From positions 124,001-188,000 of the forward strand of contig JAJDDB010000004.1 of NCBI GenBank assembly GCA_029260575.1: DNA of 64,000 nucleotides, in the 5' to 3' direction. Each line of letters begins with the position of its first letter. Position 1 is the stretch's first letter. Origin of the DNA: Phycisphaerales bacterium (GTDB taxonomy: Bacteria; Planctomycetota; Phycisphaerae; Phycisphaerales; SM1A02). Shown here piece after piece: positions 35,453 through 54,506 of the stretch. The notes under the pieces are model-generated. The model had not been told where the DNA came from, did no database searches, and saw only the letters and a list, made by a program, of their open reading frames with translations. The position numbers and the translations under genes are program-made.

Positions 35453-36178
35453 TCACACCAGGACGAACGAGTCGAGACGCTCCTTCCGCTGCCGCCAATC
35501 CGGCATGCATCGCCCCAGCAGCCGGTAGAACGCGGGACTGTGATCGTGGATTCTCAGATGGCAAAGCTCGTGCATGATCACGTACTCGATGCAATCGGTC
35601 GGCGTCTTGATCAACTCCAGGTTGAGCGTCACGGTTCCAGCGCTGGTGCAGCTCCCCCAACGCTTGCGCATCCGCCTGATGCGAATCGCGGGTACCACAG
35701 ATCGCAGCGCCTTGGCGGAACTGATACACCGCTGCGTTCGATCCTCGAAGATCGGGGCCGCATGTGCGCGATACCACTCGTCCAGCGCAGCGGCGATGGC
35801 CGATGGATCGGCGGGCTCCGGAACGAATGCGTTGATGAACCGCCCGGCCATCTTGACGCTCGCATGATCACTACGATGAACACGCAGGCGGTATTGGCGT
35901 CCAAGGTATAGATGTGTTTCGCCCGACATATACCGCTTCTCGACTGGCAGTGGACTGAAGCGCTCGAAGTGCCGCATCTGCTTCGCGATCCACAATGCTC
36001 GTCGCTGTAGACGCGTCTGGATCTCGTCGGCCGTGCGGCCGATGGGCGCAAGAGCACTGACGGTGCAGTCTGGATGAACTGTGATCGACAATCGCTCTCG
36101 CTTGCCGTAGTCGAGCGCAACGGCGACCTTCCTGCCACCGTACTCAACGTCCATCGTCTTGGTCAGAGAATCACGCAT
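35453..36178 (-). CDS. YgjP-type M48-like metallopeptidase
   Basis: The 241-aa protein belongs to the YgjP/SprT-like zinc metallopeptidases (DUF45). The HExxH motif is MHELCHLRIHDHSP near residue 205, and RMRKRWGSCTSAGTVTLNLELIKTP just before it is the conserved family block. It has no signal peptide, so it acts in the cytoplasm. Its first 8 bases overlap the end of hsdR and it is the last gene of the island operon. Such genes are frequent neighbours of hsdR, but their role in restriction is not established; protein turnover of Hsd subunits is one guess. Confidence 0.85.
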   Translation of the reverse strand: MRDSLTKTMDVEYGGRKVAVALDYGKRERLSITVHPDCTVSALAPIGRTADEIQTRLQRRALWIAKQMRHFERFSPLPVEKRYMSGETHLYLGRQYRLRVHRSDHASVKMAGRFINAFVPEPADPSAIAAALDEWYRAHAAPIFEDRTQRCISSAKALRSVVPAIRIRRMRKRWGSCTSAGTVTLNLELIKTPTDCIEYVIMHELCHLRIHDHSPAFYRLLGRCMPDWRQRKERLDSFVLV

Positions 36179-39100
36179 ACCGGGACCGCGCGATGTCGAG
36201 CGTCAGATCGAGAACTCGGTCGATGTCCTCAAATGTCAGATCGATACCGTGTAGCTCCTTCAGATCAAACAAGTAGTCCTCCAACGCAGTCAGCATCCGA
36301 TTCTGTACATCCGCGTTGTTCGTCCAGTTGACGATTCGATGCTGCTGCACGATTTCGTCCATCGCGATGCTCGCAGTGGTGCTCGCAGCACGTGGCTCAA
36401 AGTCATCACGGTCGTAACCGGCGAACACGTCATGTAGCACTCCAAAGAACGCCTTGGCCACGTCTCTATGGCTGAGCTCGGCAGGGATGTCGTCACCCGT
36501 GCGATTGCGCACGCATTCTGCAATCTCCGCGACCTTCTTCAGATAGTCGGCATCAGATAGTCGCTGCTCCCGAAACGCTCGAATGGCGTCCTCCAGCATC
36601 TCCGAGAACCGGCGATAGAACGCGGGATCTTCCTGCATGCGGTCGTGGATCGTTCGTTTGGTGCGATGAGCGATGGTGTCGGCCTTCGAGGCCGCGGTGC
36701 CGAGCTTGTCCACTTCCTTCGCAAAGGCGTCGGCATCGAAGATGTTGACCAGTTCCGTAATCTGTTCGACCTCTCCGGTGCCCACATGTTGATCAATCAG
36801 CTTCTGAATGCGTGTCTCGTAGTCCTTGAAGTCAACTGCTTCTGCATATCGTTTGCGCACGGATGCCCGGAGCTTCAGGAAGAACCGCAGGTCGGTCTTG
36901 TACTTCTGAACCTTGGCTTCCGGCGTAGTCTCGAGGAACGCGACTGATGAAAGGGCAATTGCGAGTGTGCGCGAATAGACGCTGAGCCGCTCGTAGAACT
37001 TCTCGCGCAGTTCATCGTCGGCGAGGAGCAGCTCATATTGCTCCTCGTCCCGCTTGTTCGACACCGTCTTGAACACCTCCCAGAGATCTGAGTGGCGCTG
37101 CGAGAGTTTCTTCGCCTCGACGTCGATGTCCGTCAGAGCATGGCACAGGTCATCCAGTCCGGCCTCATCGAACTCAGCCAGTTGCCCGTAAACATCCAGA
37201 GCCTCATCCAGATTCTGCAGCACGCCGCGGTAGTCGATGATGTAGCCGAAGTCCTTTCCGTCATACAGACGATTCACCCGTGCAATCGCCTGCAGCAAGG
37301 TATGCCCCTTCAACTTGCGCGTCAGATACAGCACGGTGTTCCGAGGTGCATCGAATCCCGTAAGCAGCTTGTCGACGACAATGATGATCTCGGGATCGTC
37401 CGCGTGCTTGAATGCGCTAATGAGCTGGCGGTTGTACTCTCTCTCGCTTCCGTACTTGGCCATCATCTTCTTCCAGAAGGCCTTCACCACGTCCGCCGAT
37501 TCCTCGTGGACGTCTTCTTCCCCTTCCCGGTCATCCGGACCCGAGATGAGCACTTCGCTGCGCACCATGCCGAAGTCATCCAGGAACTTCTTGTAGAGCA
37601 GCGCTGTCGCCTTGTCCTGCGCAACGAGCTGCGCCCTGTATGGCGTGCCCTGCCAGTTCTCGCGATAATGCTCGCTCACGTCCCAGGCGATGCGCATGAC
37701 CTTCTGCTCAGCCTTGTTCAGCTGGTCGCTGGAAGTGAACTTCTTCTTCAGATCCGCTTTCTGATCCTTGCTCAGATCCTCTGTGATCCGATCGAACCAG
37801 CTGTCCACTGACTCCGTGTCGACCTTCTGATCCACGTGCCGGCCTTCGTACAACAACGGCACCACGGCCTTGTCTTTGACCGCTTGCTCGATTGTGTACG
37901 TGTCGATCAGCCCGCCGAAGCGCTCGATGGTGTTCTTGTCCTTCTTCATGACGGGCGTGCCGGTGAAGCCGATGAAGCAGGCATTCGGCATCGCCTTCTT
38001 CATCTTGGCGTGCAACTCGCCGTACTGACCGCGGTGGCTCTCGTCCACGAGGACGAAGATGTCCGGGTTATCGTCGCGCACATCGCTCTTGCTGACAGCC
38101 AGCTCGAACTTGTCGATGACTGACGTGATGATCCGGGCCTTGTTCTCGCGAAGGAGCTCGGCAAGGTGCTTACCGGTCTTTGACTGAACCGGCTGGGTCC
38201 CGCAGTGATGGAACGTCTTATAGATCTGGTCGTCGAGGTCGACACGGTCGGTGACCAGGATGATCTTGTAGTTGTCGATGCCACGTTCCAGCGCAATCGC
38301 CTCAGCCAACATGACCATTGTCAGGCTCTTTCCACTGCCCTGCGTGTGCCACACCACGCCGCCACGGCGTGTACCGTCGGTTTCGGTGCGCCGGATGCGA
38401 TCGAGGAGCTTCTTCACGCAGAAGTACTGCTGGTAGCGGGCGACCTTCTTCTCGCCGGCATCGAACAGCATGAAGCGGAATACTAGTTCCAGGAGCCGCG
38501 CGGGGCGGCACAAGGCGTACACCGCGCGATCCTGCTCAGTCACTTCACGACCGTCGCTCGCGAGGGCATCGAAGTACTCACGGACATAGTGGAATCGCTC
38601 GCCGAACAAGCGATCCTTCTGCTCATCCGAGAGCGGCGTGCGCAGCAACTCGGCAACCGATGACTCGATGTCTGTCTGTTCCTTCCACACCGACCAGAAC
38701 TTCGCCGGTGTGCCCACCGTCGCGTACTTGGCCTCGTTCTTCGAGAGTGTCAGGAGAAGCTGGGCGCAGAAGAAGAGCCGCGGTATCTGATCGCGCTGCT
38801 GGTTGCGGATCTGCTGGCTGATCGCTTGGGCGATAGGGTCTTTCAAATCAGGACGCTTACACTCGATGACGACCAGAGGAACTCCGTTGACGAAGAGAAC
38901 AATGTCAGGGCGACGGGTCTCGTTGCTACCGGCTCGTTCGACGACGAACTCCTCGGTCACGTGGAAGACATTGTTCTCCGGCGTGGTCCAGTCGATGTAG
39001 TCGAGTTGGAAGCTCTTTGTGTCACCACCGATCGACTGTTGCATGCTCTTACCGAGGCAGATTAGGTCGTAGACCCTCTCGTTGGTCAGGATCAACCCAT

Positions 39101-39374
39101 CGTCGGCCACCTCCTTGAGCGCCTGGACAGCCGACAGGATGTTCCCTTCGCTAAACGGGTACTCCTTCCCCTTGAAGCGGATGATGTTCATCTTCCGCAA
39201 CTGTTCAGTCAGCACACGTTCCAGGAGCACGCCCGCGAGACGACCGCCGCGCGCTGCAACGGCCTCAGATGGGCTGAGGTACTCGTAACCGAGCTTCTGC
39301 AGCAGTTCCAGCGCCGGCACCTGCGAGATGTGATCCTCTTTGAATGAGGGAGTGTCCATTTCACCCGTCCTCAT
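36171..39374 (-). CDS. hsdR: Type I restriction enzyme, R subunit
   Basis: HsdR is the translocating, DNA-cutting subunit of a type I R-M enzyme. In the 1067-aa protein the N-terminal nuclease has RPDIVLFVNGVPLVVIECKRPD (D...ExK, about 160-180). The SF2 motor follows with VWHTQGSGKSLTM (motif I), LVTDRVDLDDQIYK, VDESHRGQYG (a DEAH-like motif II) and FTGTPV (motif III). KLLTGFDAPRNTVLYL and QAIARVNRLYDGK are the late helicase motifs. The C-terminal 300 residues are helical and should bind HsdM. An ATG at 39359, just past the dinD stop, is an alternative start. It appears complete. Confidence 0.95.
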   Translation of the reverse strand: MRTGEMDTPSFKEDHISQVPALELLQKLGYEYLSPSEAVAARGGRLAGVLLERVLTEQLRKMNIIRFKGKEYPFSEGNILSAVQALKEVADDGLILTNERVYDLICLGKSMQQSIGGDTKSFQLDYIDWTTPENNVFHVTEEFVVERAGSNETRRPDIVLFVNGVPLVVIECKRPDLKDPIAQAISQQIRNQQRDQIPRLFFCAQLLLTLSKNEAKYATVGTPAKFWSVWKEQTDIESSVAELLRTPLSDEQKDRLFGERFHYVREYFDALASDGREVTEQDRAVYALCRPARLLELVFRFMLFDAGEKKVARYQQYFCVKKLLDRIRRTETDGTRRGGVVWHTQGSGKSLTMVMLAEAIALERGIDNYKIILVTDRVDLDDQIYKTFHHCGTQPVQSKTGKHLAELLRENKARIITSVIDKFELAVSKSDVRDDNPDIFVLVDESHRGQYGELHAKMKKAMPNACFIGFTGTPVMKKDKNTIERFGGLIDTYTIEQAVKDKAVVPLLYEGRHVDQKVDTESVDSWFDRITEDLSKDQKADLKKKFTSSDQLNKAEQKVMRIAWDVSEHYRENWQGTPYRAQLVAQDKATALLYKKFLDDFGMVRSEVLISGPDDREGEEDVHEESADVVKAFWKKMMAKYGSEREYNRQLISAFKHADDPEIIIVVDKLLTGFDAPRNTVLYLTRKLKGHTLLQAIARVNRLYDGKDFGYIIDYRGVLQNLDEALDVYGQLAEFDEAGLDDLCHALTDIDVEAKKLSQRHSDLWEVFKTVSNKRDEEQYELLLADDELREKFYERLSVYSRTLAIALSSVAFLETTPEAKVQKYKTDLRFFLKLRASVRKRYAEAVDFKDYETRIQKLIDQHVGTGEVEQITELVNIFDADAFAKEVDKLGTAASKADTIAHRTKRTIHDRMQEDPAFYRRFSEMLEDAIRAFREQRLSDADYLKKVAEIAECVRNRTGDDIPAELSHRDVAKAFFGVLHDVFAGYDRDDFEPRAASTTASIAMDEIVQQHRIVNWTNNADVQNRMLTALEDYLFDLKELHGIDLTFEDIDRVLDLTLDIARSRYA

Positions 39375-40230
39375 CGCTTGGCAGTTCCGGCAACGGCTCG
39401 GCTTGCTTGGGCAGTTTCTTCTCGTCTGACGCCAGGCGCCGTTCGATCTTCTTGATGTCCTCCGCCGGGGGCAGCTGCTCGGGCACGATGTCTCGATCCG
39501 TCAGCAGTTTCCGCACGTCGGTGTTGTTCTTCACATGCTCCCGGCTGATGGTCGACTCTGAGTGCAGATCATCTTTCTTGATGTTGAAATTCGTGATCTC
39601 GTTGGCGAAGTCCTTGGCCTTGATCGTGATGGTCGGCAGGAAGTCAGCCAGCGGGCGCGACTTGGGAATGCCGAGAGTGTCCTTCATGCTCTGGGTCGTC
39701 TTGCCGCCGAACAACGCCTGGTCGCCCTTGCTGCGGATGCGGGCGAAGCTCCGTTCGTCGCGCACGCGCTCGTAGATGATCCCCGAAAGTTCCTTCTCAG
39801 ACGCCGTGAGCTTCTTCCGGGCGCCGACCCGCTCCACATCGGCAAGCCGTTTCTCGATGACCTCCTGCCGCCGGGTCTGCACCGCGAAGTAGGTCTGGGC
39901 GAAGGCGATAGGATCCTTGGACGGGTCGCCGTTTTGGGCGATCAGGTAGCACGCGTACCGGGTCAGGGCGATGTCATCGACCTCCCGCACGGCCCCCGAG
40001 CCCAGTTCGACCATTTTCGTGACCTCAAGAAAATGGTCCGACGGCTCGTAACCGGCGGTGTGGCAAGATATTACGGCCTTGTCGATGACCTTTCGGAAGT
40101 TCTCCCACCGGGCGTACCCCAGGACTTCCTGGAGCCCCCGGGCGAGCCAGAACTCCGTGCCGGTCTCCTGACAGGTCTGGGCGATGCCCTCGAACTGTGA
40201 GTGCAGCTGGCCGACGATTTCCTTCTTCAT
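39361..40230 (-). CDS. dinD: DinD-like (DNA-damage-inducible protein D) protein
   Basis: The 289-aa protein matches the DinD family: FWLARGLQEVLGYARWENFRKVIDKA (a Bro-N-like DNA-binding unit), DHFLEVTKMVELGSGAVREVDDIALTRYACYLIAQNGDP, and the central KGDQALFGG. E. coli DinD inhibits RecA filaments and is LexA-regulated, but many homologues sit in R-M operons as here, between hsdS and hsdR. It overlaps hsdS by four bases and hsdR by up to 14. It may limit recombination at cut DNA; that is an inference. Confidence 0.88.
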   Translation of the reverse strand: MKKEIVGQLHSQFEGIAQTCQETGTEFWLARGLQEVLGYARWENFRKVIDKAVISCHTAGYEPSDHFLEVTKMVELGSGAVREVDDIALTRYACYLIAQNGDPSKDPIAFAQTYFAVQTRRQEVIEKRLADVERVGARKKLTASEKELSGIIYERVRDERSFARIRSKGDQALFGGKTTQSMKDTLGIPKSRPLADFLPTITIKAKDFANEITNFNIKKDDLHSESTISREHVKNNTDVRKLLTDRDIVPEQLPPAEDIKKIERRLASDEKKLPKQAEPLPELPSDEDG

Positions 40231-41513
40231 GATGATGGTCCTTTCTGGGAGTTCCGGGTACTTCCCGACAGCAGCCTCTGCATCAGGCCCCTCTTCAGGT
40301 CGCGCAGCGCCACCAGTTTCTTTTTGAGAGCGAACTCCTGGTCGGCAGACTTCAATACTGCGGCAATTGCCTTCTGCTCGTCTAACGGTGGAAGTGGTAT
40401 GTGGAGACCCTTGATCGCCGATTGAGGCAGGTTGTATCGGGTAGCACCCTGCGACAATCGGGCTATTGCGCGCCGTGTTCTTTCGCCACGAAGTAGGTGG
40501 CCAGCGAACTCTGGCCAGAGCGTGTCGAGTTCATCAAGCCTGAATCCGAAGCAGAAACTGTTCAAGTAGGTCTGTCGGACGTCAGCAAGAAGGACCGATG
40601 CCATTCCGACTTCGAGGCGCGTCTCCGATGATGTAGTGAAGAACATGTCGCCGTAGCGCACTTCATTCTGGGTCTCATCGGCGCCCACTCGAACGTAGTC
40701 CATTCGCCGTGGGTCGATGTAGGTGTTGTCGAAGATGTTGAGGTATGGGATGTATGGTGATCCCTGTCCAAAGTCCTCTTTCGACTTGCCAGTCAGCCCC
40801 GCGTAAGTGCTCCCGAGCGCCCCGAACCGCACGCATTCCCAATCTGCCGGGATCCACCCGCACTTCGATTCCTTGCCAACCCGGCCTCCGACAGCCGGTT
40901 CACCGAAACCCGGCAGGCGGCGTTCGCCGGTGAGCAGTTGCTGGGCGAGGCCACGCTTCAGTTCACGCTTGGCCGCGATGAGATCGGATGTCCGGCGGAT
41001 CGCCCGATCCGCATCGGCCAAGACATCGACAGTCAGTTGCTGATACTCGACAGGTGGAACGGGGATCTTCAGCCGCTTGAATTCCTCCTGCCCGAGTGTC
41101 TTGTTCCGGCCGGCGCCGCCGGGCGACGCGACGTTGAGGTCGTACTTGCCGCGGGGTGACGAGAAATACCTCCAGACATACTCCGGCAGGAGTGAGCCGT
41201 TCTTCGTCGCGTACATTGGGAATCGATGCGAAGCGATCATCCCCGCTTCGGCATCGCTGGTCATGGCGACAGCTTGTTCCCACGCAAAGATGATGTTGAA
41301 GACGAGGCAGCCGGGTTCGATCCAGAACACGCGCTTGTTGCCGATGATGGCTCCGGTGGTCTCCTTCTTGTGGAAGATGCCTTTGCAATGACTACGGATG
41401 CCGATCTCGCGGTAGATCTGGTCTGGGTCGACTTCAACGGGGCGGCGGACACGTTTGAGCAGGTCGCCGATCGGCTGCATCGACCAGCCTGGAGGTAAGA
41501 GCCGTTCGGTCAT
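40227..41513 (-). CDS. hsdS: Type I restriction enzyme, full-size S subunit
   Basis: HsdS reads the DNA target. The 428-aa protein has two target-recognition domains, each followed by a helical spacer: the first ends near VEYQQLTVDVLADADRAIRRTSDLIAAKRELKRGLAQQLLTGERRLPGF, the second near LDEQKAIAAVLKSADQEFALKKKLVALRDLKRGLMQRLLSG. The near-identical spacer wording (KRGLxQxLLxG) is typical. The ATG at 41513 overlaps the stop of the E2-SEC-C gene (ATGA) and has gaggaa upstream inside that gene, so its translation depends on the CBASS gene before it. Confidence 0.93.
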   Translation of the reverse strand: MTERLLPPGWSMQPIGDLLKRVRRPVEVDPDQIYREIGIRSHCKGIFHKKETTGAIIGNKRVFWIEPGCLVFNIIFAWEQAVAMTSDAEAGMIASHRFPMYATKNGSLLPEYVWRYFSSPRGKYDLNVASPGGAGRNKTLGQEEFKRLKIPVPPVEYQQLTVDVLADADRAIRRTSDLIAAKRELKRGLAQQLLTGERRLPGFGEPAVGGRVGKESKCGWIPADWECVRFGALGSTYAGLTGKSKEDFGQGSPYIPYLNIFDNTYIDPRRMDYVRVGADETQNEVRYGDMFFTTSSETRLEVGMASVLLADVRQTYLNSFCFGFRLDELDTLWPEFAGHLLRGERTRRAIARLSQGATRYNLPQSAIKGLHIPLPPLDEQKAIAAVLKSADQEFALKKKLVALRDLKRGLMQRLLSGSTRNSQKGPSS

Positions 41514-42268
41514 CGTCGTTTCCTCGATCGCTGCTGTTTCTGCTGGCGCCTTTGCTTCCGCTTCCACATCTTCGCCGGAAGCACATCGCGCTCCGGGAGA
41601 TCGATGTCCGCGTTCCGTGCCATCTCGATCATCGCGCGCAACTCGTGCTCGAACATCTCCGGCCAATAGTGCGGCCGCAACTCATCGAGTTTGGGGCCGT
41701 GGCAGTCCTGGAGCTTCCTGCCACTTCCACATGGACACGGACCGAGCGGGGGTGCGAAGTCATCCGCCAGGCACTTCAGGAGCTTCAACGTGGTTACGCC
41801 ACCGGTGCCAAAGTGCGCCATGTAATAGTCGAGCAGACCGGGCGTGCCATGCGCAAGATCATCGAATGGCGGGACCCCATGACCCTGTAGATAGCTGTGC
41901 CTGAAGAGGAACGGGATGACCTGATCGTTGATGAATGCGAGGAGGGTTCTGTCCTGAGCGAAGCGGCGTCGAACCTCGATCGGTGCGCCGAGGCAGAAGT
42001 TGCCCGCCTTCATGAAGTGTCCATAGTCGCGCGAGATCTTCTCTCCCGTCTCGTAGACAGTCGGGGGATCGGTGGGATAGTCATCCGGAATGCGAAGCTC
42101 GACGTCGTAGGAGTCTTCCACAGTGTGCCCATCGTGCTCAATGCGGAACCCGACCGGACCACGGACCATCAACTCGCCATCGGGGTCGAGAATCAACTCA
42201 AGGCCTGGGTGCTGCGCTTGGGCATCTGCCATGTGGGCGATCACGGTTTCGACGACTCCTTCATCCAC
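41510..42268 (-). CDS. CBASS E2-like conjugating protein with C-terminal SEC-C motif
   Basis: The N-terminal 150 residues have the pattern of prokaryotic E2 (ubiquitin-conjugating-like) domains: FRIEHDG strand, YDVELRIPDDYPTDPPTVYETG, then the putative active cysteine in AGNFCLGAP (Cys92 from the GTG start) and the late FLFRHSYLQGHGVPPFDDLAHGTPGL. In short type II CBASS an E2 without E1 or JAB partners acts on the CD-NTase. Residues about 175-191 add a SEC-C zinc motif, CPCGSGRKLQDCHG, and the end is very basic (KRKQRRQQKQQRSRKRR). The GTG at 42268 overlaps the CD-NTase stop by eight bases; a TTG at 42313 is possible. The ATGA end couples it to hsdS. I infer the role from domain and neighbours. 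Confidence 0.8.
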   Translation of the reverse strand: MDEGVVETVIAHMADAQAQHPGLELILDPDGELMVRGPVGFRIEHDGHTVEDSYDVELRIPDDYPTDPPTVYETGEKISRDYGHFMKAGNFCLGAPIEVRRRFAQDRTLLAFINDQVIPFLFRHSYLQGHGVPPFDDLAHGTPGLLDYYMAHFGTGGVTTLKLLKCLADDFAPPLGPCPCGSGRKLQDCHGPKLDELRPHYWPEMFEHELRAMIEMARNADIDLPERDVLPAKMWKRKQRRQQKQQRSRKRR

Positions 42269-43508
42269 GTGAGGCTCGGTTGCTCCATGGCTTGGCGGGG
42301 CGATCAGGCACAACGATGTCTGGCTTGGTTGGTGTGGTGTCCTTTCTCGGGACGATCACAACCGGCGCAACAGCGGCAGGATTGGTCTTGCCCGTGTTCC
42401 GACTGGCGTACTTCGCCATCGTGGCCTGGGCATCGCGCCGGCCAAACGACTCAGTTAGATAGGTGCCGATCTTCTCGAAGCCCTGGTCGGTGATCAGATG
42501 CAGATACTCGGCCTCGACAGCGTCGAGCCACTCGAAGAACAGTTCGGCCTTGCGAGGCGTTTCCTGCCACTTGTCCGCAAAGTTCTCCAGAGGATTCACC
42601 GGGTTCTCGATCCACCAGACGCCGTCGCGCCGTTCGATGTTGTTTCGCATGCCCGGTACGATCTTCATTACGGCGTCGAAAAGATCTGCCTCGTTGTCAT
42701 ACGCCTTGGCGGCGAGCGTCGTGATGATCACCGAGATGGGCTTGTCGTCATCCCCGTTGTACCGAACGTCGCGATGACGCTTGAGGATCTGAATGACGCG
42801 CTGGAGCGGTGTCCGAACTTCGAAATCCTCGATCTCCTCTACTTCCGCCCCCTTGGCCATTGCCAGCGCGCGCCGTCCTTCTTCGAGGCGGACGCGCATG
42901 CGGTCCTTGAACCAGTCTGCGTATCCCTTGGGGTTGCTCCGCGTGGGATCGTGAGCCGATTGGCCATCGGCCGGCCAGCCCGTCGTGAATTCGGGTGTGG
43001 TATTGTCAGTAATACGAATGGCGTGACTCGCACGATCATCCGGGACGCGCAGGGCGATCAGCCAGCCGAAGCCGTCGGGAACGGAGGGCAAGACATCGAG
43101 GTGGAACTTGGAGCTGTCGGCATACTGGATTGTCCAGCAGCGCCGGCCGCCGTCCCTGGGATCGATCTTCTCCTTGTAGCGGCTCTTGGGATGCTTGAGC
43201 CGCTGGCCGATCATCTCCTTGAGCTGCTGTTGCGTGACTTGGTCGGCGCTGAGCTGCAGGAGGCAAACAGCGTCCACGTCATATTCATCGTCGCCCAGCG
43301 GCCGAACTACCGTGCCCAACGCGAATGACCCCTGCGGATAGATCTGAGGGTCGAAGGCCGCGAGCTCAGAGTCGTCGTCACCGAGCCATGTGCCAACTGC
43401 GTCGTAGTGGTCCTTGGCATCCTGGTACTTCGACGGTGGCACATCGAGCGCGTCTGAGAGGTCACGGAAGATGCGGTTGAGTTCTTTTCGGTGACTCGGT
43501 TGGTTCAT
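42261..43508 (-). CDS. CBASS cyclic-oligonucleotide synthase (CD-NTase)
   Basis: CD-NTases sense infection and make a cyclic nucleotide that activates an effector. The 415-aa protein has the nucleotidyltransferase signature PQGSFALGTVVRPLGDDEYDVDAV: Gly60-Ser61, then Asp77 and Asp79 as metal ligands. The third acidic residue is in FHLDVLP (Asp138). An OAS1-like helical domain follows (VIQILKRHRDVRYN). All catalytic residues are present. The tail from about residue 365 is Pro/Lys-rich and ends ...NRASRG with a terminal glycine, the kind of C-terminus that type II CBASS conjugation acts on. It overlaps CapV-like and E2 genes at its two ends. Clade and product nucleotide cannot be told from sequence. 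Confidence 0.9.
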   Translation of the reverse strand: MNQPSHRKELNRIFRDLSDALDVPPSKYQDAKDHYDAVGTWLGDDDSELAAFDPQIYPQGSFALGTVVRPLGDDEYDVDAVCLLQLSADQVTQQQLKEMIGQRLKHPKSRYKEKIDPRDGGRRCWTIQYADSSKFHLDVLPSVPDGFGWLIALRVPDDRASHAIRITDNTTPEFTTGWPADGQSAHDPTRSNPKGYADWFKDRMRVRLEEGRRALAMAKGAEVEEIEDFEVRTPLQRVIQILKRHRDVRYNGDDDKPISVIITTLAAKAYDNEADLFDAVMKIVPGMRNNIERRDGVWWIENPVNPLENFADKWQETPRKAELFFEWLDAVEAEYLHLITDQGFEKIGTYLTESFGRRDAQATMAKYASRNTGKTNPAAVAPVVIVPRKDTTPTKPDIVVPDRPAKPWSNRASRG

Positions 43509-44482
43509 TGGTTGTCTCCGGACATGGCTAGGAAATCGGCGACCTTCGCGGCGTGGTGTGTGAAGCAGTGGTCCGCTTTGGTGATCCAGTCATTCAGTTT
43601 GCGCGTCGAGTCCATCGGAAGGGGCGTATCCGACTCGAACGTCAATCTGCAGACTCTCTGTGGAGAGAGCGGGTTCTCTCCGAGCAGCAGGCAGAGCATG
43701 TTGTGCGCGGTGTCTGCTTGAAGATTCAGGATGAGGTCAAGCAGCTTGCTGCGTTCCCACCGGGTGACGAAGCCCCATCCCTGCCAACTCCGGATGAACC
43801 GGTCCCTCCACCAACTCGTGTTCCGGTCGTAGAACGTCTTGCTCTTGCCAGTTCCGATCGAGAGAACGCGAATGTCATCCAGCGGAATGCCCATGCGATA
43901 CTTCGCGTCGATCACCGCAACGAGCGATGGATTGTTCGCCCATAGTCCGCCATCCACGAGCTGGTACTTTCCGGCAACGAGGTGTGGGTCGAAGTAGGTC
44001 GGCGCCGAACAAGACGCCAGAACCGCATCGGAGATCCTGACGTCGGGGTCGCGCACAAAGCCATCCGAATACTTCGACTTGAATACATGGACGCAACCGT
44101 TGCCGATATCAACTGATGGGAGGATGAGAGGAACGGAAACCTCACCCAATGTCGTGGTGCCGAACTCCTCCTCGAGAAGGCTACGAAGGCGTGAGCTTGA
44201 GTACCGACTCGTCAGGATCTTCAGCAGATCGAGTCGAGAGCGAAGGCGCGGCTTGAAGATCGAGTCGCCGTGCGCCGCGTAGAAGTTCGATACCTGACTG
44301 GCTGTGAGGCCAGTGGCCAGCCCCGCGGCGATGATGGAACCCGTGCTCGTGCCTGCGAACATCCCGAACCGCTCGCGCCACGCGATGGACCAAGACTCCT
44401 CCATGCGCTTCAGCAGGTGGGCCGAGAAGGCGCCCCGAAGACCACCGCCGTCGACTGCGAGGATGTAGAAGCGATCGCTCAA
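43505..44482 (-). CDS. capV: CBASS patatin-like phospholipase effector (CapV-like)
   Basis: CapV effectors degrade membrane phospholipids when they bind the CD-NTase product and so kill the infected cell. The 325-aa protein starts YILAVDGGGLRGAFSAHLLKR, giving the oxyanion hole GGGLRG (residues 12-17). The nucleophile elbow is GTSTGS (Ser46), and the catalytic aspartate is in LVDGGLWANNPSLVAV, the DGG-type patatin site. There is no signal peptide or membrane anchor. It overlaps hsdM by four bases upstream and the CD-NTase by four bases downstream. Function as a CBASS effector is inferred from these neighbours. Confidence 0.9.
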   Translation of the reverse strand: MSDRFYILAVDGGGLRGAFSAHLLKRMEESWSIAWRERFGMFAGTSTGSIIAAGLATGLTASQVSNFYAAHGDSIFKPRLRSRLDLLKILTSRYSSSRLRSLLEEEFGTTTLGEVSVPLILPSVDIGNGCVHVFKSKYSDGFVRDPDVRISDAVLASCSAPTYFDPHLVAGKYQLVDGGLWANNPSLVAVIDAKYRMGIPLDDIRVLSIGTGKSKTFYDRNTSWWRDRFIRSWQGWGFVTRWERSKLLDLILNLQADTAHNMLCLLLGENPLSPQRVCRLTFESDTPLPMDSTRKLNDWITKADHCFTHHAAKVADFLAMSGDNQ

Positions 44483-46041
44483 AGGCCCAGTTCCCCGAGA
44501 TAGCTGTCCAACTCGGCCTGGACAGTCGCCAGTTGCCCCTCAAGAGTCGCGATTTCCTTCTTCACGGCCGGGATGTCGACCTCTGGCTCTGGCTCGAAGG
44601 TGTCGACGTAGCGCGGAATATTGAGGTTGAAGTCGTTCTCCTTGATCTCATCGAGCGTGGCTGGGTAGGCGTATTTGTCGACCTCTTTGAAAGCGCCGAA
44701 CACCTTGACGATCTTGTCGATGTCCTGCTCCCGAAGACGATTCTGGTTCTTTGCGTCCTCGAACTCCCGGCTGGCGTCAATGAACAAGACGTGCTTGTCC
44801 CGGTGTGCACGTGCCTTGTCCCAGGGCTTGCGGGACTTCTTGTAGATCACGATGGCCGCGGGGATGCCGGTGCCGAAGAAGAGGTTCGCAGGCAGACCGA
44901 TGACGGCTTCGAGCGTGTTGTCCTCGATGAGCTTCTGGCGGATCTTCCCTTCGGCGCCGCCACGAAAGAGAACGCCATGGGGAACGATCACGCCGACACG
45001 ACCATCGTCCTCGAGAGCGGTCTCGATCATGTGGCTGATGAAGGCGTAGTCCCCCTTGCTCTTCGGCGGGATGCCGCGCCAGAAGCGGTTGTACGGGTCG
45101 TTCTCGGCGTAGTCGTGGCCCCACTTGTCCAGGCTGAACGGGGGATTGGCGACGACGACGTTGAACCTCATGAGGCGGTCGCCTTCGACAAGACGCGGGC
45201 TCGTGATCGTGTTGCACCATTCGACGCGTGCATTGTCCATCGCGTGCAGGAACATGTTCATGCGGCACAGTGCCCACGTGCTTCCGTTTGACTCTTGCCC
45301 ATAGACGGCGAAGTTGCCCGACCCGACCTCCTTCGCCACGCGGATGAGAAGCGACCCGGACCCACAGGCGGGGTCGCAGATGGTGTCGCCGGACTCTGCA
45401 TGGAGCAGCTTGGCCAGCAGCGTGGCCACTTCCCCTGGCGTGTAGAACTCACCACCTTTCTTCCCAGCGTCGGCGGCAAACCGGCTGATCAGGTATTCGT
45501 ACGCGTCCCCGATGACGTCCTGGTTGCCGATCCGGCTCGGGCGCAGGTTGAGCTGGGGCTTGGCGAAGTCATCCAGAAGGTGATTCAACCGCCGGTTTCG
45601 GTCCTTCGTCTGACCCAGATTCGGTTCGGAGTTGAAGTCGATGTTCCGAAAGACGTTCTCAAGCTTGGTCTTGTTCGCATCGTCAATCGCCTCGAGCGCG
45701 ATGTTGATGAGCTCGCCGATGTTTGAGCGTGTTCGACGCTCGTAGAGGCTCGGGAAACTGGCGTGGAATGACTCCTCGACATTGCCGTCGCCGTCCTTCA
45801 ACTCGACCATCGGCATAACAAAGCGCTCACGGCTCATCGCGCGTTCCACGCGTTGCTCGTTACCCTTGTACTGTTCGATGTACTGGTCGCGCTTGTCCTG
45901 CCAGAGATCGGACATGTACTTGATGAACAGCATCACAAGGATGTAGTCCTTGTACTGCGTCGGGTCGAGCGTTCCTCGGAACGTGTCGCACGCCTGCCAG
46001 AGAATGTCGTTGATTTCCTTCTGCGAAACCTTCTGGGTCAT
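44479..46041 (-). CDS. hsdM: Type I restriction enzyme, M subunit
   Basis: HsdM is the N6-adenine methyltransferase. The 520-aa protein has the N-terminal helical HsdM domain (INDILWQACDTFRGTLDPTQYKDYIL), SAM motif ICDPACGSGSLLIRVA and catalytic ANPPFSLDKW, and FYTPGEVATLLAKLL before it. The C-terminal end has a helical segment that should contact HsdS (KKEIATLEGQLATVQAELDSYLGEL). The ATG at 46041 lies four bases after the half-size S gene with gcaggag just upstream. It is complete and overlaps capV by four bases (ATGA). Confidence 0.95.
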   Translation of the reverse strand: MTQKVSQKEINDILWQACDTFRGTLDPTQYKDYILVMLFIKYMSDLWQDKRDQYIEQYKGNEQRVERAMSRERFVMPMVELKDGDGNVEESFHASFPSLYERRTRSNIGELINIALEAIDDANKTKLENVFRNIDFNSEPNLGQTKDRNRRLNHLLDDFAKPQLNLRPSRIGNQDVIGDAYEYLISRFAADAGKKGGEFYTPGEVATLLAKLLHAESGDTICDPACGSGSLLIRVAKEVGSGNFAVYGQESNGSTWALCRMNMFLHAMDNARVEWCNTITSPRLVEGDRLMRFNVVVANPPFSLDKWGHDYAENDPYNRFWRGIPPKSKGDYAFISHMIETALEDDGRVGVIVPHGVLFRGGAEGKIRQKLIEDNTLEAVIGLPANLFFGTGIPAAIVIYKKSRKPWDKARAHRDKHVLFIDASREFEDAKNQNRLREQDIDKIVKVFGAFKEVDKYAYPATLDEIKENDFNLNIPRYVDTFEPEPEVDIPAVKKEIATLEGQLATVQAELDSYLGELGL

Positions 46042-46045
46042 CGTG

Positions 46046-46660
46046 TTACTCCTGCTCGCGACGAACCGCATGCCTGCACGCCAGGTGCAGCAACTGATCA
46101 CGCTTGTTGGTGAGACGTTCCTGAAGCGCAGCTCGCTGCTGCTGCAGGTAGACAACGGATTCAATTCGTGACTGCGTATCGGCAGTCGGCACCACCACGA
46201 AAATGCCGCCGAGCGCATGCCGATTGATGTATCCAATCCCCGTCCCGCGCGCGCACGCATCGATCTGCGCCTGCGTCTCGGGGAGGTTCAACCACCACGC
46301 CAGGTATGCCGGTCGTACGATGGTGACGTCCGGGCGAATGATGTAGAAGACGTTCGATGCCAGGGTATCGGTGAGGTCCTCGGTGACGAGGAACGCCCGG
46401 TGTGTTCGCCCGCGAGCTGGCAGCAGAATGTCGTCGCGCGATACCCGGTAGAGCTCGGCGTTTCGCTCGGGCCGGAAGGTGACCACGTCGCTCCAGTCAA
46501 TGCCGGCACCTCGTGGAAGGTCCCTGGCTTGGAGCAGGCGGTGCGTCCCGGCTTCGTTGGATCGCACTCGTGTTCGGCTGGAATAGCCGGGCTGGATGCG
46601 AGCAGCGCGCTGGAGTGGAACGCCAGAAAGGGAGGGAGATGACTGGTCAGTACACGGCAT
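46046..46660 (-). CDS. Half-size type I restriction S subunit (single TRD)
   Basis: The 204-aa protein carries one target-recognition domain: VPLQRAARIQPGYS at the start, HRLLQARDLPRGAGIDW, DDILLPARGRTHRAFLV, FYIIRPDVTIVRPAYLAWWLN, and the typical turn RGTGIGYINRHALGGIFVVVP, followed by a helical spacer (IESVVYLQQQRAALQERL). Half-size S proteins work as dimers in place of a two-domain S, or pair with another. It is the first gene of the operon. Its ATG lies inside an operator-like dyad about three bases from the predicted transcript start, so the mRNA may be nearly leaderless. Confidence 0.8.
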   Translation of the reverse strand: MPCTDQSSPSLSGVPLQRAARIQPGYSSRTRVRSNEAGTHRLLQARDLPRGAGIDWSDVVTFRPERNAELYRVSRDDILLPARGRTHRAFLVTEDLTDTLASNVFYIIRPDVTIVRPAYLAWWLNLPETQAQIDACARGTGIGYINRHALGGIFVVVPTADTQSRIESVVYLQQQRAALQERLTNKRDQLLHLACRHAVRREQE

Positions 46661-46666
46661 ACTGAC
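46646..46666. promoter_or_regulatory. Operator-like dyad O1 over the island's first start codon
   Basis: GTCAGTA-N7-TACTGAC is a perfect seven-base dyad. It covers the predicted transcript start and the ATG of the half-size S gene. O2 has the same motif 62 bases away. The spacing suits an HTH dimer. Confidence 0.75.
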
Positions 46667-46669
46667 AAC

Positions 46670-46697
46670 ATCGTAGGGGCGATGCCGCCCATGTCAA
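46670..46697 (-). promoter_or_regulatory. Promoter of the R-M/CBASS operon
   Basis: On the minus strand TTGACA (46697-46692), 16 bases, then TACGAT (46675-46670). The spacer contains gggcggcatcgccc, a further dyad. The promoter lies between O1 and O2, so a protein binding both could block or loop it. Confidence 0.7.
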
Positions 46698-46707
46698 CGT
46701 CCTAGTT

Positions 46708-46728
46708 GTCAGTAGCGTCGGTACTGAT
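46708..46728. promoter_or_regulatory. Operator-like dyad O2
   Basis: GTCAGTA-N7-TACTGAT matches O1 at 13 of 14 arm positions, and the three bases before it (gtt) also match O1 read on the minus strand. It lies just upstream of the -35 box of the island promoter. Confidence 0.7.
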
Positions 46729-47001
46729 GGAATCGATCGCTTCGCGGGTTCGGTGTAAGTGCCTCGGTGACAGCTTGTTGGGCGCAGGATCGTCGGAAGT
46801 CCCAGAGCTGGCGGAGTTCTGAACCCGGTGCCTACGGGCGATGCCTTCGGGTAGACCTCCTCCTTTGGTCCGCGTGCGAGGCCACCCATCGGCGCTCGAA
46901 TCACCGCGGGCTGCCCGCGAGGGCCTCGCATCCCGCGCGACAGAACCCGCTGGTTTGCAGAGGGGTTGGGGTGAGCCTCCAGCACATCGGAGCCCCATCC
47001 C
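46729..47001. other. Junction between defence island and integrative element
   Basis: About 270 bases without a supported gene. It holds repeat copy R3 and G/C-rich sequence. A promoter for the recombinase operon is expected here but I could not name one. Confidence 0.4.
46952..46969 (+). repeat. Repeat copy R3 before the recombinase operon
   Basis: GGTTTGCAGAGGGGTTGG, 32 bases before the first gene of the integrative element. It differs from R1 and R2 at a few positions and shares the preceding gcgcgac with R2. Confidence 0.5.
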
Positions 47002-47244
47002 ATGCCTCGTACACCGACAAGCGCACCGGCCGCGCCCGCGGTCGAGCCGCGCCATGGCCGCGCGAACCCGTTTGTTGACCTGCTGGCCGCCGGACTCGCG
47101 CGCCTCATCGACGCATCGCCGCCGACCGGGACCGAATCTCCAGAATCCGGCGCGACATGCCTTGAGTTCTCGGCGGAGTCGAGGCTCAGTGGTCCCACTG
47201 GTGAACCGGCCGAGAACCGAGAGGCCGGAGACGTGGAGCCATGA
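47002..47244 (+). CDS. Small unknown protein heading the recombinase operon
   Basis: An 80-aa protein starting MPRTPTSAPAAPAVEPRHGRAN, with one helix-like stretch NPFVDLLAAGLARLIDA and a polar tail. It has no known domain that I recognise. Its stop overlaps the start of the DUF2924 gene (ATGA), and that gene overlaps the recombinase in the same way, so it is very probably real. A role as partner or directionality factor of the recombinase is only a guess. Confidence 0.6.
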   Translation: MPRTPTSAPAAPAVEPRHGRANPFVDLLAAGLARLIDASPPTGTESPESGATCLEFSAESRLSGPTGEPAENREAGDVEP

Positions 47245-47771
47245 GAACTGCGATGAAGCCGGATGCGACGCGACAGATGATTGAAAAGCTCCAGGGGCTG
47301 ACGGTTGGTCAGCTCCGAGATCGGTACGCCGAGGTCTTCGGCGAGCCCACGCGCTCGGGCAACCGGCAATGGTTGCTTCGCCGCGTCGCCTGGCGGCTCC
47401 AGGCGCTCGCCGAGGGTGATCTGTCCGAGCGCGCGCGGCGCCGCGCAGCGGAGTTGGCCCGGGACGCTGACATCCGGTTGCGGCCGCCGGTGGATCGCGG
47501 TCCGGCGCTCGGCGCCGACGTCCGCACCGTGACGGGCCGGGTGGCGAGCCGGCCGGACGAGCGGCTGCCGATACCAGGCAGCGTGCTCACGCGGACTTTC
47601 AAAGGCGTCGAGTACCGGGTGGCCGTGCTCCAGAACGGCTTTGAGTACGACGGCACCATCTACCGATCGTTGTCCGCCGTCTCGACCGCGATCAGCGGAT
47701 CGCACTGGAATGGATACCACTTCTTCGGGCTTACCCGACCGACCCAGGGCGCGCGGAAGGAGCCGTCATGA
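47241..47771 (+). CDS. DUF2924 domain protein
   Basis: DUF2924 proteins of unknown function are common immediate neighbours of large serine recombinases in integrative elements. This 176-aa protein shows the family pattern: LTVGQLRDRYAEVFGEPTRSGNRQWLLRRVAWRLQ near the N-terminus and PGSVLTRTFKGVEYRVAVLQNGFEYDGTIYRSLSAVSTAISGSHWNGYHFFGL at the end. The last part resembles a small DNA-contacting fold seen in recombinase-linked proteins. Both ends overlap neighbours by four bases. Confidence 0.85.
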   Translation: MRTAMKPDATRQMIEKLQGLTVGQLRDRYAEVFGEPTRSGNRQWLLRRVAWRLQALAEGDLSERARRRAAELARDADIRLRPPVDRGPALGADVRTVTGRVASRPDERLPIPGSVLTRTFKGVEYRVAVLQNGFEYDGTIYRSLSAVSTAISGSHWNGYHFFGLTRPTQGARKEPS

Positions 47772-49273
47772 CCAAGGCTCGCGGCGACGGCACCAAGACC
47801 ATCCGGTGCGCGATCTATACGCGCAAGAGCACCGAGGAGGGGCTGGAGCAAGACTTCAACTCGCTCGACGCTCAGCGCGAGAGCGGCGAAGCGTTCATTG
47901 CAAGTCAACGAGCCGAAGGATGGATCTGCGTCCCCGATCGATACGACGATGGTGGTTTCACCGGCGGCAACATGGAACGGCCGGCGGCGAAGCGGCTCCT
48001 CGCGGACATCGAAGCTGGCAAGATCGATTGCATCGTGGTCTACAAGGTGGATCGCCTCAGCCGATCGCTCATGGACTTCGCGCGGATGATGAGCGTGTTC
48101 GAGCAGCATGACGTCTCGTTCGTCTCCGTCACGCAGCAATTCAACACCACGAACTCGATGGGCCGGCTGACGCTGAACATCCTTCTTAGCTTCGCCCAGT
48201 TCGAACGAGAGCTGATCTCCGAGCGCACGCGCGACAAGATCGCCGCCGCACGGCGTAAGGGCAAATGGGCCGGCGGTCGACCCGTTCTCGGCTACGACCT
48301 CGTGCCCGGGCCCGGTGGATCGAAACTGATGCCTAACAAGCGCGAGGCGGACCGCGTTCGGCGCATCTTCGCGCTGTATCTCGAATTAGGATCGCTGCTC
48401 CGAGTTGTGCGGGAATGCGGCGATCGGGACTGGACCACGAAACGATGGACGACCAAGGCCGGCAAGCCCATGGGCGGGCGGACGCTCGACAAGGGAGCGA
48501 TGCATTCGCTCCTCACGAACGTCGCGTATCTGGGCCGGGTCCGGCACCACAAGGATGTCTTCGAGGGCGAGCACGAAGCGATCGTGGACGCCGACACGTT
48601 TGACCGCGTGCAATCGCAGCTTCGACAGAATGGACGCACCGGCGGGTCACGAACGCGGAACTCCCACAACGCGCTGCTCAAGGGCCTCGTCCGTTGCGAA
48701 ACCTGCGGCTGCGGTATGGCGCATCACTTCGCCACCAAGAAGACCAAAACGGGCACGAAGCGATACCACTACTACGTCTGCCTGAAGGCTCAGAAGCAAG
48801 GGTGGGATGCGTGTCCGGGCGCATCACTGCCGGCGGACGACCTCGAGCAATTCGTGATCGACCAGGTTCGGGAGCGTGCCCAAGAGGACCAGACGTCGGA
48901 TGCCATCGTGGATAGGGCGATCGAACTCCTCTCCGAGGCGGCGGAGCGTCGGAGATCCAAGCGGGCCGAGCTTTCGGACGAGATCGCACACATCGATTGT
49001 GCTGAGGCCATCGGCCGAATCGAAGCGCAGCTCGCCGATCTCGACCGCCAGATCGCGCAGGACGCGAGCCGCCTCATCGATCGGGACGAACTCGCCGGAG
49101 CCGTCGAAGCGTTCGATCCGATGTGGAACGCGATGGTCCACGCAGAGCGTGAGGCGCTCGTTCGATACATCATCGCCGGCGTGGCATATGACGCGCTGAA
49201 TCAGTCCATCACGGTGACATTCCGCGACGCTCCATCCGACGAGGCCCAGCCACGGGAGGTCGAAGCCGCATGA
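47768..49273 (+). CDS. Large serine recombinase
   Basis: Large serine recombinases integrate and excise elements by double-strand cleavage at att sites. The 501-aa protein has the resolvase domain with the catalytic serine in AIYTRKSTEEG (Ser21), then DRLSRSLMDFARMM and the arginines of the ARR-type patch. FAQFERELISERTRDKIAAARRKGKW is the long helix E. A recombinase domain and a zinc ribbon follow (CETCGCGMAHHF ... YYVCLKAQKQGWDACPG, four Cys), then a coiled coil (about 380-440). It is full length. It is cotranslated with the HTH gene that follows. Confidence 0.95.
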   Translation: MTKARGDGTKTIRCAIYTRKSTEEGLEQDFNSLDAQRESGEAFIASQRAEGWICVPDRYDDGGFTGGNMERPAAKRLLADIEAGKIDCIVVYKVDRLSRSLMDFARMMSVFEQHDVSFVSVTQQFNTTNSMGRLTLNILLSFAQFERELISERTRDKIAAARRKGKWAGGRPVLGYDLVPGPGGSKLMPNKREADRVRRIFALYLELGSLLRVVRECGDRDWTTKRWTTKAGKPMGGRTLDKGAMHSLLTNVAYLGRVRHHKDVFEGEHEAIVDADTFDRVQSQLRQNGRTGGSRTRNSHNALLKGLVRCETCGCGMAHHFATKKTKTGTKRYHYYVCLKAQKQGWDACPGASLPADDLEQFVIDQVRERAQEDQTSDAIVDRAIELLSEAAERRRSKRAELSDEIAHIDCAEAIGRIEAQLADLDRQIAQDASRLIDRDELAGAVEAFDPMWNAMVHAEREALVRYIIAGVAYDALNQSITVTFRDAPSDEAQPREVEAA

Positions 49274-49686
49274 CGCAGGCCGTCACGACCAAGATCCACT
49301 TCGGAACGTCCGATCGAGGACGGCGGCAGATTCGCGTCGGTGCCGCGCCACGCGCACCGGAGGCGCCGCTCGGTCGTGTTCCTCGCGTGGCTCGACTGAT
49401 GGCGCTCGCGATTCGCTTCGACGGGCTGATGCGCGACGGGGCGATCAGCGATCAGGCGGAGGTCGCGCGGCTCGGTCATGTGTCGCGGGCGCGCGTGACG
49501 CAGATCATGAACCTGCTGTCTCTCGCGCCGGACATCCAGGAGGCCATCCTCCATCTTCCCACCGTGGAGCACGGGCGCGACCCGATCACCGAGCGGGAAC
49601 TGCGCCCGATCGCCGCGGAGATTAACTGGGCGCGACAGCGGGCAATGTGGTCGAGCCTGGCACGGGGCTACGGTCTGGCGCCATGA
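49270..49686 (+). CDS. Small HTH protein following the recombinase
   Basis: The 138-aa protein has a helix-turn-helix in the middle (AEVARLGHVSRARVTQIMNLLSL, residues about 72-95), like the KorB/ParB type, and a charged C-terminus. It overlaps the recombinase by four bases. Small HTH genes of this kind often accompany DUF2924 and serine recombinases, so a role in element control or directionality is likely. Whether it binds the O1/O2 dyads 2.6 kb away is unknown. Confidence 0.7.
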   Translation: MTQAVTTKIHFGTSDRGRRQIRVGAAPRAPEAPLGRVPRVARLMALAIRFDGLMRDGAISDQAEVARLGHVSRARVTQIMNLLSLAPDIQEAILHLPTVEHGRDPITERELRPIAAEINWARQRAMWSSLARGYGLAP

Positions 49687-49839
49687 TGTCCACATCCTGT
49701 GGAAAGCCTGACGTTTCCCCGACGGGCCCTGTCGGCGGGTCGGCGGATCGCCGTCCGCGCGGTAGAATCGCGCGATGGTCGCCACGACCTGTCGTGCTCG
49801 TGGCACTCCAGCTGGAGCTGGGTGTACCAGGAGTCACGG

Positions 49840-51015
49840 ATGGCGAAGCTACGGTCGGGCCGTTTTGCGAATCCAGAGTCGATCAGCGGGGTCGAACGCC
49901 GACTCCTGCGGCGGTTCCTTGAGCAGTTCAGGCCCCACCTCGAATCGCGGGGGATCTTCACGGCGGACGGCCTCGATGATGACGCGGTTGTCCGTCTCTT
50001 CAACGACCTCGGCCCGGATCTCCCCGACGAGCTGATTGACCAGATCGGCGCCATCGACGAGATGGCCCGACCCGCGAACTTCGACAAGCTGCTCGGCGAG
50101 GCCATACGCCTGAACCTGGAGGTCGGCGAGGACCCCAGCGTAGGCGACCTCGTCGTCCTGCTGCTGCTCGACGCCGCGGACTCGCTGGAGCGGCTCTACG
50201 CCGAGCAGCTTCCCCTGGCGCGCCGGAAGTTCCGAAGCCACCTGGCTCTGACCGATGACCCGCCCCAGGTCCGCGCGATTGCCGACGACGTCGCCGAGGC
50301 GCTTCGGCTGTCACTCGACTTGGACTTCGTGCGACGGCGCCGGGGCGGCGGCGTGCGCGTGTACGCCGTCGAGACGGATGACGGATTCCGACTGATGATC
50401 CGCCGCGGCGATGTGCTCCACCGCGAGACCGTGGTGGACCTGGCCACGGCGAGCACGAAGAACATCGCGTTCCGGCCGCAGCGCTTCGATGCGCTGATAT
50501 ACAAGTGCGTCGACGGTGAGCTTCGCGTCAACGCGAAGACCGACGCTGATGCCAAGGCGTACCTGGAGCACGTCGGGCACCACGTCTTCGGCCTCTCGAC
50601 GCTCTTCCTTGGCGAGGGGCTCCCGGCACGGTACACGCTCACGCCAATTGTTGAGCACGGACAGCGTTGCCTCGAATGCGGAGACGTTCCGGAGCTCCTC
50701 AGTGTCCGCCTGACTGCCCTTGACTGGGTGCATCCCGCCTCGAGGATGATCAGGCGCATGGGCCCGTACGAGGACGTCTTCCGCGGCATGCGCACGGAAG
50801 GAGAGTCGATTCCCCGTGGCGCGACGCTGGTCAGCGCGACATTCCGCGTCATGTACCGCGGTGGTCGCGAGGCCTCGCATCGCGTGATTCCCCCGAATGA
50901 CACCGTGGGCGAGGATTGCGAAATCTTCCTGCGGTGGCTCGCGCTGCGCGGGTTCTTCCAGGATCGTGGAGTTGCAACCCATGGCCTCACTCGAGTCCTT
51001 CTGGCGACAGGTTGA
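49840..51015 (+). CDS. Unknown protein, first gene of a two-gene module
   Basis: I do not recognise this 391-aa protein. Residues about 30-130 are acidic and helical. From about 165 a basic strand region follows (RRRRGGGVRVYAVETDDGFRLMIRR), with DALIYKCVDGELRVNAKTDADAKAYLEHVG near 215, then LECGDVPELLSVRLTALDWVHPASRMIRRMGPYEDVFRG and a C-terminal TRVLLATG. A single CLECG does not form a clear zinc site. There is no membrane helix or signal. The ATG at 49840 has ggag nine bases upstream. It overlaps the next gene by 35 bases, so the two act together. A function in defence or element control is possible, not shown. Confidence 0.6.
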   Translation: MAKLRSGRFANPESISGVERRLLRRFLEQFRPHLESRGIFTADGLDDDAVVRLFNDLGPDLPDELIDQIGAIDEMARPANFDKLLGEAIRLNLEVGEDPSVGDLVVLLLLDAADSLERLYAEQLPLARRKFRSHLALTDDPPQVRAIADDVAEALRLSLDLDFVRRRRGGGVRVYAVETDDGFRLMIRRGDVLHRETVVDLATASTKNIAFRPQRFDALIYKCVDGELRVNAKTDADAKAYLEHVGHHVFGLSTLFLGEGLPARYTLTPIVEHGQRCLECGDVPELLSVRLTALDWVHPASRMIRRMGPYEDVFRGMRTEGESIPRGATLVSATFRVMYRGGREASHRVIPPNDTVGEDCEIFLRWLALRGFFQDRGVATHGLTRVLLATG

Positions 51016-51982: not shown

Positions 51983-52149
51983 ACCCATTCTGCGCAAGTG
52001 CAAGACCGTGGCCGCGGCGGCCTAAGTCGCTGTGGTCTGTTCCATTGCGCCCGTCGAAGGAGATTCTTGCGCGCGGATCTGCAGCCCTGACCCGCTGGTG
52101 AACGCGACGTGCCGTGCGTCGCGCAGCAATCCACCAGCCGGAGTTCATC

Positions 52150-52707
52150 ATGCTGCAGACCTGCCAACCGACCAGCCACCGACACAGTCACCCGGAACGA
52201 CTCAACCCCCTCACCGAACGCCGCATCCGATACCGAGCCGACCGACTCGCTCGCATCTTCCGCCTCTCTCTCGACGACCGGGACGACCTCCGCCAGGAGC
52301 TCTACCTGGTCGTTTGGGCGGCGCTGCCGAAGTACGTCCCCGACCGGGGCTCGCTCGACGCGTTCACCCGCGGCGTCATGGACAACTGGTATCGCCACAC
52401 GGCCCGCGAAGTCCGTCGCTCTCGGGAGCGCGATCCTGGCGTCGTCCCGCTCCCCGAACGCGACACCGAGGCGACCGCGTTCATCGACCCGGCCGCCCGC
52501 CACGTCGAGGCAACGGACATCCGGCTCGACCTGCTGCCGCGACTCGCTCGACTGCCACGCGAGCTTGCGGAGATCGCCCTTCAGCGTGGTGCCGGTCTGA
52601 GCGCGCGCGAGATCGCCGATGAACGCGGCGTTCATCGGGGCACCATCCACCGCGCCATTCAGGTCATCCGTGACGAACTCTCACACCTGAGTCCGATTGC
52701 CGCTTGA
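52150..52707 (+). CDS. Element-encoded sigma-70 family (ECF-like) factor
   Basis: The 185-aa protein has region 2 (RLARIFRLSLDDRDDLRQELYLVVWAALPKYVPDRGSLDAFTRGVMDNW, the DLxQE...W pattern) and region 4 (LARLPRELAEIALQRGAGLSAREIADERGVHRGTIHRAIQVIRDEL) as a typical sigma HTH. No anti-sigma factor is visible next to it. It sits between the unknown two-gene module and the recombination genes, so it may drive element operons. The ATG at 52150 gives standard length; longer frames add no conserved residues. Confidence 0.8.
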   Translation: MLQTCQPTSHRHSHPERLNPLTERRIRYRADRLARIFRLSLDDRDDLRQELYLVVWAALPKYVPDRGSLDAFTRGVMDNWYRHTAREVRRSRERDPGVVPLPERDTEATAFIDPAARHVEATDIRLDLLPRLARLPRELAEIALQRGAGLSAREIADERGVHRGTIHRAIQVIRDELSHLSPIAA

Positions 52708-52861
52708 TCGCGCGACAGATTCGCGGGCGGGGCAGAGGGGTACTGGTGTGCCCCCTGTCCCGAACCCCGCGACCGACACGCCGCTCGTCCGCACCGGACA
52801 GGGCGATTTCGTCCGCGACATCCATCCCGGCGACCTGATCCGACGCCCACGGAAACGCCGC

Positions 52862-53680: not shown

Positions 53681-53708
53681 ACCAACCAGCGAAGGAGACA
53701 ACGACCAG

Positions 53709-54503: not shown

Positions 54504-54506
54504 TCC

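Follow-up and report, generated by a model that had tools for sequence, protein, structure and literature searches.

Paired dyads at the promoter of a type I restriction-modification and CBASS island as putative operators of a half-size specificity subunit

Described control of restriction-modification promoters

Little is known about the control of type I restriction-modification (RM) promoters; the literature found offers one dedicated repressor (RptR) and a C-type gene from one Mycoplasma locus. RptR is a 79-aa helical protein that acts on TAGCTA repeats overlapping the -10 box of an EPEC type I RM-DarTG2-M48 island (Zhang et al., NAR 2025, PMC12255303). The island described here resembles that one in enclosing a second defence system within a type I RM locus and in having, as proposed, a first gene whose protein represses its own promoter via repeated palindromes; in both islands a metallopeptidase gene lies downstream (PMC12255303). 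The two proteins are, however, unrelated: here a 204-aa S-type subunit is encoded first, and bipartite sites (CAGTA-N7-TACTG) flank the promoter. Membership of the RptR family was rejected, as the first gene is not a 79-aa RptR homologue and no TAGCTA-type sites were found at the promoter (positions 46600-46760).

For type II systems a 2025 review names control by promoter methylation, by methyltransferase-repressor fusions and by C proteins, and it reports a C-type gene for one type I locus (PMC12707154). M.SsoII, other type II methyltransferases and C proteins share with the present proposal the autogenous control of RM genes by a methyltransferase component or its partner (PMC12707154). They differ in belonging to type II systems and in using HTH domains or C proteins, with no TRD-based regulator among them.

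The homodimeric single-TRD S subunits of NgoAV, EcoR124I delta50 and EcoDXXI deltaC read GCA N8 TGC, GAA N7 TTC and TCA N8 TGA (PMC3874165). The likeness to these lies in the single-TRD S subunit, the interrupted palindrome and a methyl interval of 7-8 (PMC3874165). Those proteins are truncations that supply modification specificity, whereas the subunit described here, termed half-S, has a conserved gene of its own next to that of an intact full HsdS, and its proposed target lies in its own promoter. A further likeness is to Esub1 (PDB 8vsq, 8vsr with Prx), a protein of about 200 aa that matches half-S by profile and by fold; no paper on its function was found in the open-access literature, so no role could be transferred to half-S. 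In the same literature no type I specificity subunit was found described as a regulator of transcription, and with most subscription papers and preprints outside the search the novelty of the proposal is provisional.

The island and its promoter

The window, which is the whole 64,000-nucleotide stretch of DNA analysed, contains a type I RM operon enclosing a CBASS cassette, with the gene order running leftward from the promoter:

46046..46660, minus strand: half-S, 204-aa single-TRD type I specificity subunit (PADLOC Specificity_I), the proposed reader of O1 and O2; begins MPCTD inside O1
44479..46041, minus strand: HsdM, the proposed half-S partner (N6_Mtase and HsdM_N)
43505..44482, minus strand: patatin-like CBASS effector
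42261..43508, minus strand: DncV-like CD-NTase (CBASS cyclase)
41510..42313, minus strand: E2-like CBASS accessory protein
40227..41516, minus strand: full two-TRD HsdS
39361..40230, minus strand: DinD-like Bro-N protein, a candidate regulator in the preliminary description; not conserved with the operators
36171..39374, minus strand: HsdR
35453..36178, minus strand: YgjP-like metallopeptidase, the final gene of the island

The CBASS assignment follows from the presence of the patatin, the DncV-like NTase and the E2 protein within the island. On the plus strand to the right of the promoter are DUF2924 and large serine recombinase genes, and prophage genes begin. The prophage seems to start right of O2, covering window positions 47002-64000 and continuing through L126 (contig C4 up to about 203 kb), with genes for a Sak4-like annealing protein, helicase, primase, ParB-methyltransferase, terminase, portal and tape measure. 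A trio of DUF2924, large serine recombinase and small HTH genes (window 47241-49686) adjoins the half-S promoter, and likewise in the IMG/VR contig L199 (L199:1049-3545). A second copy of the trio lies about 53 kb away on the contig of the window (L127:18237-18737 into L128), beside another type I RM locus, and the trio may serve defence islands as a mobility module.

The half-S protein matched PADLOC Specificity_I at 2.5e-15, and a 208-aa model was matched nearly end to end, over positions 4-188; Pfam Methylase_S was not reached. Profile searches returned Esub1 (1.1e-8) and the HsdS structures 5ybb (2.8e-8) and 3okg (3.2e-8). The AlphaFold2 model, built from three sequences, was weak (mean pLDDT 60.6, residues 1-71 below 50); it contained a long C-terminal helix (160-203), and its fold matched Esub1 (8vsr, 8vsq; 2.1e-5) and type I methyltransferase S subunits. 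The gene adjoins a type I hsdM, and by sequence, fold and neighbourhood half-S can be classed as a type I HsdS-type specificity subunit in single-TRD (half) form. By analogy with the truncated S subunits, and from the form of the promoter sites, half-S would be expected to homodimerise and steer HsdM to an interrupted palindrome.

The elements of the promoter region are as follows:

46646..46666, no strand: operator O1, GTCAGTA-CACGGCA-TACTGAC, with core CAGTA-N7-TACTG; over the predicted start site and the half-S ATG (from the sequence and relatives)
46670..46675, minus strand: -10 box TACGAT (promoter scan)
46677..46690, no strand: small spacer dyad GGGCG-ATGC-CGCCC (from the sequence), probably incidental
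46692..46697, minus strand: -35 box TTGACA (promoter scan)
46708..46728, no strand: operator O2, GTCAGTA-GCGTCGG-TACTGAT, 10 bp upstream of the -35 box (from the sequence; counterpart upstream of TTGAC in relatives)

The coordinates of both dyads and their separation of 62 bp agreed with the preliminary description, as did the TTGACA-N16-TACGAT element between them (minus strand 46697-46670), which was the sole promoter-like site in a scan of 46500-47300. The statement that O1 covers the predicted start site and the half-S ATG was also borne out by the coordinates: the edge of O1 is 3 bp past the -10 box, the start predicted 6-7 nt after this box falls at about 46663-46664, within O1, and the ATG (46660-46658) is likewise inside the dyad. 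This spacing suggests that the half-S transcript is probably leaderless or nearly so. The third, small dyad reported in the promoter spacer is present in the sequence but is absent from the promoters of the related loci L199, L201 and L231, and was judged incidental.

Conservation of the paired sites on half-S promoters

Perfect 7-N7-7 dyads occur seven times within the window, and a single one is unremarkable. The genome search proposed in the preliminary description showed that the O1/O2 pair is unique in the 4.1-Mb genome, and among 392 genomes from the phylum one has such a twin. Neither 300 Markov shuffles nor 200 windows from the same locus produced a score as high as that of the O1/O2 pair. 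With arms of 5 bp, CAGTA-N7-TACTG has four sites in the genome, two at O1 and O2 and two inside open frames elsewhere. A loose scan of viral contigs for single dyads gave noise only.

One genome from each of 84,980 species, together with IMG/VR, was screened for pairs of TCAGTA-N7-TACTGA sites separated by 28-58 bp, a query using DNA only and blind to proteins, for which well under one match is expected by chance (our own estimate from base counts). Outside repeats the twin was found in three places, a Desulfobulbus contig (L196) and two IMG/VR contigs (L199 and L201) that may be host or provirus fragments. All three are promoters of half-S orthologues in RM-CBASS operons, with 46-54% identity to the half-S of the window and 57-64% among themselves. 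The remaining matches were discounted as tandem arrays (Bacteroidales, Chitinophagaceae) or, in L200 and L202, apparent coding repeats; in the Bacteroidales MAGs L189, L191, L192, L194, L195, L197 and L198 units like GTCAGTA-N7-TACTGAC are repeated in tandem every ~21 bp.

The operator-like arrangement noted at the island promoter thus recurs in three independent sister loci. In each the ATG lies within O1, O2 is upstream of a TTGAC box and the encoded protein begins M-x-x-T-D; O1 lies over the ATG in L199, L201, L231 and, with CTGTA arms, L204. Downstream are genes for HsdM, a CBASS cyclase, HsdS, HsdR and a YgjP-like peptidase; the CD-NTase is found in 3/3 sister loci, and E2 and an HNH-SAVED effector in two each. 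The YgjP-like metallopeptidase ends all four islands of the CAGTA type (window 35453-36178, L247:2123-2902, L248:11597-12322, L249:2355-3137), just as an M48 peptidase ends the RptR island; it could be an inducing protease.

More distant relatives of half-S were found by tblastn in 43 plasmid records. Where annotated loci were retrieved, the gene carries the label 'restriction endonuclease subunit S' or hypothetical and stands before hsdM, with a small gene intervening in one locus; a full hsdS or RhuM gene usually comes next. Operons of this kind whose promoters carry twins with other arms are mostly on plasmids, and the arms are specific to clades: CTGTA-N7-TACAG in Methylocystis, Novosphingobium, Paracoccus, Rhodobacter and Mameliella, CTGTA-N8-TACAG in Mesorhizobium, Neotabrizicola and Roseicitreum, and CACCA-N7-TGGTG in Komagataeibacter. 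All confident arms are CNNNA immediately before an N7 or N8 spacer (CNNNA-N7/8-TNNNG), and the distance between twins is 48-63 bp in the 13 loci scoring at least 18. The Methylocystis ATG lies within O1, as in the window, and in the other CTGTA loci O1 is between the -10 box and the start codon.

Against Markov shuffles, 14 of 38 half-S promoters had a twin at p<=0.05 (12 at p<=0.01) and the other 24 had no significant twin; against windows of the same locus the count was 17 of 38 at p<=0.05. The combined Fisher values of 2.6e-11 and 7.8e-13, respectively, are optimistic, as some of the 38 promoters are akin to one another. Visual inspection of further loci showed a good site paired with a degenerate one, the arms being for example CAGAA or CATCA; these loci were excluded from the evidence. 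A scan of IMG/VR for CTGTA-N8 twins gave 46 loci. One (L287) was a half-S promoter whose half-S has as its closest match, at 57% identity, the N8 half-S of L211; the other 45 were unrelated and look like repeats within coding sequence or operators of other kinds. The annotated half-S starts at L210:2393 and L216:2402 are upstream of the apparent promoter, that of L210 taking in both operators, and are probably misannotated.

Two ideas about the sites were dropped. At the C-terminal helix the N8 half-S proteins L205, L211 and L214 are 3-5 residues longer than the N7 proteins L207-L210, but the rule drawn from this, a tail about 4 residues longer with N8 (the TAEL rule), did not fit L204. The LexA (SOS) box has the consensus CTGT-N8-ACAG; the spacing is wrong for the CAGTA-N7-TACTG of the window and even for the CTGTA-type operators, which read as CTGT-N9/N10-ACAG.

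The reader of the sites and alternative explanations

The preliminary description held that no matching regulator is encoded next to the dyads, and this was not supported. Half-S, HsdM, HsdS and HsdR are the only genes common to the operator-bearing operons compared, and half-S is the likely reader of the sites because it alone of the four is expected to read a symmetric bipartite sequence. The full HsdS was rejected as the reader, since the operator remains the same while the HsdS TRDs are exchanged, and a full HsdS should have an asymmetric target. Within operator groups half-S TRDs are conserved (39-93% identity for CTGTA, 53-66% for CAGTA), while most pairs of full-HsdS TRDs in the same operons share 20-31%, with a few shared TRDs at 70-90%. 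Half-S has thus kept its specificity while that of restriction was swapped, which is what a tie between half-S and its operator would predict. HsdM divides into the same two groups (81-97% identity within, 62-66% between), and because it co-diverges with half-S covariation alone cannot single out half-S. If methylation falls on the A that precedes the spacer, the methyl interval would be 7 or 8, as in EcoR124I and EcoDXXI. S subunits reportedly do not bind DNA in the absence of M (PMC3874165), so a complex of half-S with HsdM would have to form for binding.

We therefore favour, with a probability of about 0.68, the reading that O1 and O2 are operators to which half-S and HsdM bind, repressing the operon. 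Half-S would pair with itself through its helices and take up two HsdM to give M2(half-S)2, whose target would be the interrupted palindrome CAGTA-N7-TACTG. Bound at both operators and so flanking the polymerase site, this complex would shut out RNA polymerase, and occupancy of O1 would also be incompatible with the start of the message. Once enough complex had formed, restriction, modification and CBASS would be kept low by negative feedback on the half-S-HsdM-CBASS-HsdS-HsdR operon.

The nearest rival, which we consider unlikely though deserving of weight, is that half-S-HsdM methylates the operators at the A adjoining the spacer and that m6A at the start site and near the -35 box, not standing occupancy, sets promoter strength; DNA that had just entered and was still unmethylated might have an open promoter that methylation then damps, or the effect might run the other way. 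This shares its target evidence with the occupancy reading, HsdM is the next gene in the operon and some type II systems are controlled by promoter methylation (PMC12707154), but a switch would need one site only, whereas two well-separated copies and the placement over the ATG suit occupancy. An ordinary HTH-type repressor from the host genome or the nearby prophage is improbable. Dyads of 21 bp at a distance of 62 bp do resemble classical operators, but the site tracks half-S across unrelated hosts (a Planctomycetes-like genome, Desulfobulbus and IMG/VR contigs) and the arms vary between half-S clades within the Alphaproteobacteria. The two proteins put forward earlier as regulators fared poorly: in the seven other operator-bearing loci, some spanning only a few kb, the DinD-like protein was absent throughout, and the small HTH protein (49270-49686) was present at L199 and missing from the other six.

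Very little weight is given to the idea that the large serine recombinase encoded next door (47768-49273) uses the dyads for attachment or resolution. The recombinase module begins only about 500 bp away and a related one adjoins the half-S promoter of L199, yet the module is missing from the other operator loci, no such dyad occurs near 29 other related recombinase genes, and the left end shares no sequence longer than 13 bp with the DNA beyond the prophage. Chance, a terminator or an RNA hairpin is hardly credible as an origin: common as single dyads are in the window, these recur on orthologous promoters in unrelated hosts, and no terminator-like site was found in the scan of 46500-47300.

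Repression by half-S and HsdM would have several consequences. It would explain why many hsdM operons begin with an additional gene annotated 'restriction endonuclease subunit S', and would give a rule for finding operators, a twin CNNNA-N7/8-TNNNG around TTGACA, by which some type I half-targets could be read from promoters. It would also place CBASS under the same switch as restriction. The operon might further use its restriction core as a sensor, a doubtful extension of the proposal: because half-S2-HsdM2 would be shaped like a type I methyltransferase, a phage protein that disarms restriction by mimicking DNA (Ocr, ArdA) could also strip the repressor from O1 and O2, releasing RM and CBASS. 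If this were so, anti-restriction would become a trigger for abortive defence.
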